Below are positions 11,993-13,307 of a DNA stretch of 64,000 bases, one piece after another (within the stretch, counting starts at the first letter, position 1; the number at the start of each line of letters is the position of its first letter). This DNA is from Qipengyuania flava (GTDB lineage Bacteria > Pseudomonadota > Alphaproteobacteria > Sphingomonadales > Sphingomonadaceae). The stretch spans positions 992,001-1,056,000 of the forward strand of contig NZ_CP080410.1 of assembly GCF_019448255.1 (NCBI RefSeq), in the 5' to 3' direction. The position numbers and the translations under genes were made by a program. A model generated the notes under the pieces. The model did not search any database, was not told the origin of the DNA, and was given only the letters and a program-made list of their open reading frames with translations.

Positions 11993-12009
11993 TTTTGGCT
12001 TGCGTGCGG

Positions 12010-12027
12010 TCAGGACGTTCGTCCTGA
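12010..12027. other. Hairpin after the ferredoxin gene
   Basis: TCAGGAC and GTCCTGA arms (7 bp) close on a 4-nt GTTC loop, 18 nt after the ferredoxin stop. There is no following T-tract. It may help 3'-end stability or be part of the palindromic element just downstream. Confidence 0.35.
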
Positions 12028-12066
12028 TCTTGCTGCGGCACCAGCTTTTCCCTTCCTTTTCTGTTT

Positions 12067-12209
12067 GGTGCGCCTTCGACATCCGTCGAAGGCTTGCTGT
12101 TCCGTCCCGCTCCCCCTCCCGGCCACCCACGGCACGGTATTCTATGGGTGGCCGGGAGGGGGAGCGGGACGGAACAGCCGAAGGGAAGCGCGGATGCGCT
12201 TCACGCACC
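12067..12209. repeat. Long three-stem palindromic element
   Basis: A nested inverted repeat in the intergenic stretch between ferredoxin and cysteine synthase. The core is a perfect 34-bp inverted repeat (12096-12129 with 12145-12178) around a 15-bp centre. On each side stands a smaller hairpin with a 4-nt ATCC or GGAT loop: 9-bp stem at 12072-12093 and 7-bp stem at 12185-12202. The outer edges GGTGCG (12067-12072) and CGCACC (12204-12209) are also inverted, so the whole 143-bp unit is one imperfect palindrome. There is no transposase or open frame of its own. It looks like a REP/MITE-like mobile palindrome; copies elsewhere in the genome would prove that. Confidence 0.7.
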
Positions 12210-12290
12210 CGACAATAATCCAGTCCTCCTTTCCCGCCTGAAGATTGATGTTGTTTGCGGGTTAAGGTGCGTGCGCCTACCTCCCCAATC

Positions 12291-13307
12291 ATGACTGCAA
12301 TTCCCGTACGCGAGCATGCGCTCGACCTTATCGGCAACACGCCGCTCGTCCGCCTCGAAGGACCGAGCGCGGAAGCCGGCTGCGACATTTTCGGCAAATG
12401 CGAATTCGCCAATCCTGGCGCCTCGGTGAAGGACCGCGCCGCGCTTTACATCATCCGTGATGCGGAAGAGCGCGGCGAGCTCAAGCCCGGCGGCACGGTG
12501 GTCGAAGGCACGGCCGGCAACACCGGCATCGGCATCGCCTTGGTCGCGAACGCGCTGGGCTATCGCACGATCATCGTGATGCCCGACAACCAGAGCCAGG
12601 AAAAGATGCAGACCCTGCGCGCGCTGGGCGCGGAGCTGGTCACGGTACCGCCGACCAAATACGCCGACTGCAACCACTTCCAGCACGTCTCGCGCCGCAT
12701 GGCAGGCGAGATCGATGGCGCCATCTGGGCCGGCCAGTTTGACAACACCGCCAACCGCAAGGCGCATATCGAGACCACGGCGAAGGAGCTGTGGGAGCAG
12801 CTTGACGGCCGCATCGACGGTTTCACCTGCGCCGCCGGCACCGGCGGGACCATTGCCGGCGTCGGCATGGGCCTGAAGGAGCTGGACGAGACGGTGACCA
12901 TCGCGCTCACCGACCCGCACGGCGCCGCGCTTTACAATTACTACGCCCACGGCGAGCTGAAGGCCGAAGGCTCCTCGGTCGCCGAAGGGATCGGGCAGGG
13001 CCGCATCACCGGCAATCTCGAAGGCGCTCCGATCGACACGCAGTTCCGCGTCTCGGACGAAGAGGGCATCGCCTGGGTCGCGCGCTTGCTGCGCGAAGAG
13101 GGGCTGTGCCTCGGCCTGTCGAGCGGCATCAACGTTGCCGGCGCCATTGCGCTGGGCAAGCAGCTGGTCGCCGAAGGTCGGGAGAACCCGCGCGTCGCAA
13201 CCATCCTGTGCGATACCGGCTTCCGCTATCTCTCGACGCTCTACAACGCCGAATGGCTGGCTTCGAAGGACCTGCCCGTATTCGATTGGTTGCAAGCGGG
13301 CGATTGA
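12291..13307 (+). CDS. Cysteine synthase A family (O-acetylserine sulfhydrylase-like)
   Basis: PLP fold-type II enzyme of 338 residues, expected to make cysteine from O-acetylserine and sulfide. Landmarks: the N-terminal LIGNTPLVRL, the PLP-binding lysine in NPGASVKDRAAL, the cofactor asparagine and substrate loop EGTAGNTGIG, and the phosphate-binding GTGGT. It is longer than CysK of enterics (about 320) because of the C-terminal part LCDTGFRYLSTLYNAEWL, which marks the long cysteine synthase A group. Other members of the fold (cystathionine beta-synthase, CysM) are less likely. Start ATG 12291 was chosen over upstream in-frame sequence lacking family similarity. sat-cysC 4 kb away supplies the sulfate branch. 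Confidence 0.88.
   Translation: MTAIPVREHALDLIGNTPLVRLEGPSAEAGCDIFGKCEFANPGASVKDRAALYIIRDAEERGELKPGGTVVEGTAGNTGIGIALVANALGYRTIIVMPDNQSQEKMQTLRALGAELVTVPPTKYADCNHFQHVSRRMAGEIDGAIWAGQFDNTANRKAHIETTAKELWEQLDGRIDGFTCAAGTGGTIAGVGMGLKELDETVTIALTDPHGAALYNYYAHGELKAEGSSVAEGIGQGRITGNLEGAPIDTQFRVSDEEGIAWVARLLREEGLCLGLSSGINVAGAIALGKQLVAEGRENPRVATILCDTGFRYLSTLYNAEWLASKDLPVFDWLQAGD

Follow-up and report, generated by a model that had tools for sequence, protein, structure and literature searches.

Short palindromic repeats of bacteria are usually ascribed to a RAYT transposase or to a parent insertion sequence (IS). Classic MITEs are expected to leave target duplications, which in derivatives of DDE insertion sequences have a fixed length. 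Among Alphaproteobacteria, the Caulobacter intergenic repeats (CIR) were reportedly described by Chen and Shapiro in 2003, and GANTC is the site of CcrM methylation. In the account given in PMC2229807, CIR consist of two arms with GANTC at the terminal loop. REPINs are extragenic inverted doublets with compensatory changes (PMC3116915). The CGTC-tagged REPs of Alphaproteobacteria, as described in PMC3733652, carry a CGTC tag, stems starting with AT and a CCA-like tail, and no dedicated transposase is known for them. The open-access literature searched held no account of a three-hairpin family for Sphingomonadales or Erythrobacteraceae. The element described here belongs to such a family, which is real, dispersed, non-autonomous, palindromic and previously uncatalogued in the Sphingomonadales, and which accounts for an intergenic landmark in many sphingomonad genomes.

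The element at the ferredoxin-cysK locus and its family

The window, i.e., the whole stretch of 64,000 nucleotides that was analysed, comes from Qipengyuania flava, a marine bacterium. Between a ferredoxin gene and the cysteine synthase gene cysK, a reading of the sequence alone (below, the sequence-only reading) had pointed to a perfect 34-bp inverted repeat with two small hairpins at 12067-12209, and this observation was borne out by the sequence, the repeat search and folding. The copy alignment and the covariance model revealed that the terminal sequence is conserved beyond these 143 bp, extending the unit to approximately 161 bp (Table 1). The match of covariance model R1 (G000:C1:1004058-1004218) scores 187.7 bits, and alignment A1 supports the same extent. 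In the left terminal inverted repeat of this copy, the family consensus end GGAGTCTTTGTTGSGTGCG is degenerate. The predicted fold is cloverleaf-like, with three hairpins closed by GGTGCG/CGCACC, and reaches -125.1 kcal/mol as RNA versus -72.9 in shuffles (z -11.65), and -75.2 versus -31.1 as single-stranded DNA (z -14.6). Upstream of the full copy, a truncated half-copy begins a few bases 3' of the ferredoxin stop codon; half-copies abut full copies in this way at several sites.

Table 1. Positions, within the window, of the element and of the repeats around it
Feature	Position	Strand	Composition or basis
Full element	12058..12218	.	Core palindrome in the middle, a side hairpin to either side of it and a terminal inverted repeat at each outer end
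Left terminal inverted repeat, conserved inner part GGTGCG	12067..12072	+	Copy alignment, half-unit consensus
Left side hairpin CCTTCGAC-ATCC-GTCGAAGG	12073..12092	+	Sequence, folding, covariation
Core palindrome, left arm	12096..12129	+	Inverted-repeat search
15-nt asymmetric loop CGGCACGGTATTCTA with TATNNT motif (TATTCT)	12130..12144	+	Repeat search, loop analysis
Core palindrome, right arm; G-tracts fit G-quadruplex motif	12145..12178	+	Repeat search, motif scan
Right side hairpin GAAGCGC-GGAT-GCGCTTC	12185..12202	+	Sequence, folding, covariation
Right terminal inverted repeat, inner part CGCACC	12204..12209	+	Copy alignment, half-unit consensus
Truncated half-copy: TTGCGTGCG end, hairpin GTCAGGACGTTCGTCCTGAT, partial arm GCTGCGGCACCAGC	12000..12045	+	Sequence
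22-bp direct repeat, left copy, spans ferredoxin stop codon	11976..11997	+	Repeat search (D1)
22-bp direct repeat, right copy (86%), duplicates ferredoxin 3' end	12232..12253	+	Repeat search (D1)

BLAST of the palindrome against its own genome and relatives, followed by the covariance model, identified 18 copies of the three-hairpin unit in the 2.85-Mb single-contig chromosome and matches across the genus, the copies being gathered by similarity to the window copy. The palindrome is thus not unique, and strong covariation is seen in both its small hairpins and its core (below). Within that chromosome (G000 C1), none of the 18 copies falls between 1.09 and 2.09 Mb, a gap whose significance, roughly estimated by hand, is only weak. 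BLAST matches were found in 27 of 61 sampled genomes, nearly all within the genus, and covariance-model matches in 53 of the 158 members of the order Sphingomonadales, where a genome shown with 18 copies holds at least 18. The closest cysK relatives of the window gene are from Qipengyuania and Erythrobacter. Beyond Qipengyuania, copies in other genera can be recognised by the core palindrome and its loop, with different side hairpins and ends. Among 398 genomes sampled across the phylum, a strict core pattern was confined to the family, and the reversed control pattern had no match. As for a phage origin, the core was absent from 50,697 phage records; 14 IMG/VR contigs called viral (L319-L332) carry the core palindrome. 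The neighbours that could be identified are a gene-transfer-agent distal tail gene on one (Rcc01695 family, L332) and a phage-type terminase on another (L330), and these do not establish phage carriage.

Conserved modules and paired changes

The half-unit consensus (n=135) consists of the outer inverted end GGAGTCTTTGTTGSGTGCG, the side hairpin and then the core arm. The terminal inverted repeats of about 18 bp are common to the copies, GGTGCG precedes the side hairpins, and within these the head CATCCG/CGGATG is conserved and the stem is variable. The core arms, read away from the loop, have the sequence GGGTGGYCGGGWGGGGGMGYGGG..., and single variable positions separate their invariant G-runs; a G-quadruplex motif is present in 169 of 190 arms versus about 44 in shuffled arms. 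Loops have 15-17 nt and occur in both orientations, with TATNNT on one strand in 76% of unique loops versus 12% of shuffled ones. Despite this enrichment, a consensus scan detected no -35/-10 promoter, and a promoter in the loop was discarded. That core sequence, loop length, TATNNT and G-tracts are conserved throughout the order could reflect a selected binding function. Two further variations were seen at the module level. The terminal repeat often ends with GAGTC (e.g., L216, L266), i.e., GANTC, which 16 of 98 half-units have at a constant offset, and an alternative left module TGGCGTCTRTTCGCTCC...GGTCGCTGCGCC takes the place of the CATCCG hairpin at L034, L035, L046, L222 and L053.

Across 20 full copies, 95.2% of the cells are paired and two-sided changes occur at 23 of the 55 pairs. 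Two-sided cells amount to 128 versus 42.5 in shuffles, with none of 500 shuffles reaching 128; related sequences without structure can also exceed such shuffles, and sliding the partners abolishes the signal. One-sided changes are rare, and the arm mismatches G-T (75) and A-C (78), counted on strands that were not assigned by transcription, are equally common. Both features would favour a constraint or correction at the level of the DNA palindrome over one at the level of RNA. The sequence-only reading had taken the left and right stems, which differ and yet pair, as a sign of selection for structure. The stems do pair, with strong covariation, but palindrome-correcting recombination or cassette exchange explains the pattern just as well as selection does.

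Empty sites, inherited slots and replaced contents

The proposal of a REP/MITE-like mobile palindrome is supported, given that the 18 own copies are accompanied by copies across the genus and that empty orthologous sites show gain or loss; multiple copies combined with empty orthologous sites are expected of a non-autonomous mobile element of any kind. Clean empty sites were found in relatives at five of the own insertions (L211, L215, L217, L218 and L219). In most relatives, the intergenic region between ferredoxin and cysK measures 45 bp and has no element, and in the ferredoxin/cysK tree the occupied loci lie in three places among empty ones, inside one supported clade, implying several gains, or gains plus losses. 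The 22-bp repeat of the ferredoxin 3' end is single in the empty relatives versus present on both sides of the insertion here. In Q. mesophila (L085) the same duplication flanks the insertion, and the other copies of the element have no target duplication. Overall, no target-site duplication of constant or variable length was identified in 49 two-ended copies, nor any excess over shuffled flanks.

The idea that the unit regulates the cysteine synthase gene was not supported, because it is dispersed beside unrelated genes and mostly absent from this position in relatives. A promoter-like block 3' of the element is kept at ferredoxin-cysK in relatives that lack the element. This block (TTGTTTGCG ... 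CCTAMCTC, 12249-12291) stands directly before the cysK ATG at 12291, is conserved in many relatives, overlaps the ferredoxin stop codon in the empty ones and, judged by its sequence, resembles a promoter from which cysK would start nearly leaderless. With gene borders from a simple codon-usage caller written for the analysis, 50 copies are found between tandem genes, 23 between convergent and 21 between divergent ones; the sole call within an ORF is a locus where palindrome detection failed. The distance from core edge to gene 3' end has a median of 45 nt (quartiles 40-72). A side hairpin and an end together have roughly this length, so many units begin directly after a stop codon.

A partner of the RAYT type, which the sequence-only reading had suggested looking for, was not found. 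Y1_Tnp (PF01797) is missing from the own genome and 10 relatives, and the control was positive in five genomes. PF04986 (IS91/Y2 transposase) had no match in any genome, and equally none in the controls. An own-genome pattern search for an autonomous or longer element with the same ends recovered only the known copies and chance-level matches. For this family neither a RAYT nor a parent IS, the usual explanations of short palindromic repeats, was found in these searches. Core-less remnants that kept both side hairpins were observed as well (L230/L231, L085/L089).

Approximately 100 sampled copies fall into 40 orthologous intergenic slots, of which 27 hold an element in at least two genomes; of the 18 own slots, 12 are common to other species. 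Elements of different species in a common slot often resemble each other no more closely than unrelated copies do. Where the flanks are 86-90% identical, the mean element identity at orthologous slots is 0.75, versus 0.73 for random copy pairs; where they are at least 90% identical, the values spread between 0.70 and 0.99. Between flanks of 90-97% identity, modules have been swapped and cores turned around in place, and at flank identity of at least 90% the cores of 12 pairs are the same, of four the same but inverted, and of 12 different. Single modules are exchanged too, giving same-different-same, different-same-different and different-different-same mosaics. As an example, the own copy at L211 and that of G005 at L266 have kept both side hairpins with different cores. 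Wholesale overwriting by other copies, via conversion or reinsertion into an old copy, fits these data better than point mutation does. The comparison of genomes shows both mobility and turnover within slots.

Possible mechanisms and relation to known repeats

For mechanism and function, which we infer, the reading that we regard as probable is that of a non-autonomous palindromic element, MITE/REPIN-like, that is moved by a trans-acting enzyme and whose copies overwrite each other in a host without detectable SbcD. The enzyme would make new copies from single-stranded or cruciform DNA, and older copies would be overwritten by others, either by ectopic gene conversion or by reinsertion into or next to the old copy; conversion and recurrent insertion at a hot spot may each explain the data. 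DNA-level template switching or conversion, rather than selection on RNA, might keep the arms perfect, and perfect palindromes could be tolerable where the palindrome nuclease SbcCD is absent. SbcD (TIGR00619) was not detected in any of 12 Qipengyuania genomes, and 13 of 14 control genomes were positive. The single negative control, to judge from the names given for PF01797, appears to be Caulobacter; the absence of SbcD may thus be general in Alphaproteobacteria. The lack of detectable SbcD is a permissive background and no specific cause. The pattern of inherited slots with replaced sequence offers a natural system for asking whether concerted evolution by conversion is driven by palindromes in bacteria without detectable SbcD.

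The enzyme might also be dispensable. A palindrome present throughout the order could do without a dedicated transposase, spread and be renewed by hairpin-induced recombination, and be maintained by gene conversion instead of transposition. Left unrepaired for want of SbcCD, it would provoke breakage or template switching, and inherited slots would be rewritten from other copies, sometimes in inverted orientation. If true, this would be a self-homogenising repeat; we see it as possible, albeit doubtful. An ordinary MITE, derived by internal deletion from a DDE insertion sequence that has become rare or been lost, would share the terminal inverted repeats of about 18 bp, the size of about 160 bp and the presence/absence polymorphism, but the 49 two-ended copies without target-site duplication, the own-genome search, in which no longer element had these ends, and an order-wide conservation that is greater in the core than in the ends make this origin unlikely. 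In a classic REP/REPIN, the two side hairpins would be the REPs of an inverted doublet, and a RAYT (TnpA_REP) tyrosine transposase would move the doublet. The doublet is indeed inverted and extragenic, with two-sided compensatory changes and no target-site duplication; however, with Y1_Tnp absent from the 11 genomes searched, no GTAG tag and a 34-bp core for which we know of no REPIN counterpart, such an assignment is very unlikely.

Two explanations invoke a function at the site. A nucleoid, gyrase or recombination protein may bind the palindrome, the loop with TATNNT or the G-tracts, as in BIMEs, which would agree with slots that are common to species despite sequence turnover, with the conserved core and loop motif, and with the excess of G-quadruplex motifs in the arms. 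Against it, many relatives have no element at the same sites, or none at all, and core-less remnants persist, so an architectural site seems quite unlikely. A cis-acting RNA (terminator, mRNA stabiliser or cysK regulator) would profit from the location of the window copy between tandem genes, from the many copies starting right after stop codons and from the very stable fold. It is nevertheless highly improbable: tandem, convergent and divergent settings are used alike, the arm mismatches bear no strand-specific sign, and Rfam returned only sub-threshold microRNA-hairpin matches to the stem and no family at the gathering score.

Compared with the known systems, the family resembles the CGTC-REPs (PMC3733652) in being alphaproteobacterial, palindromic, often arranged as head-to-head dimers and without a known dedicated transposase; it differs from their description in the text of that paper in its side hairpins, which follow GGTGCG and lack the CGTC, AT and CCA features. 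With CIR, as recounted in PMC2229807, it has in common an alphaproteobacterial intergenic location, never inside genes, and GANTC in some copies, but here there are three hairpins with ATCC/GGAT and CGGCACGGTATTCTA-like loops, and GANTC is found at the outer ends only, in the 16 of 98 half-units given above. Bacterial MITEs (Correia/NEMIS, ERIC and others) are likewise dispersed, non-autonomous units of 100-200 bp with terminal inverted repeats, whereas the family described here lacks the target-site duplication and has modular internal hairpins and a core conserved across the order. REPINs and REPs (BIMEs) share the small extragenic inverted doublet, the compensatory changes, the missing target duplication and the non-autonomous nature. 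In contrast to them, the present family has no RAYT and no GTAG at the hairpin foot, measures about 161 bp and adds a conserved 34-bp core palindrome between the two hairpins.
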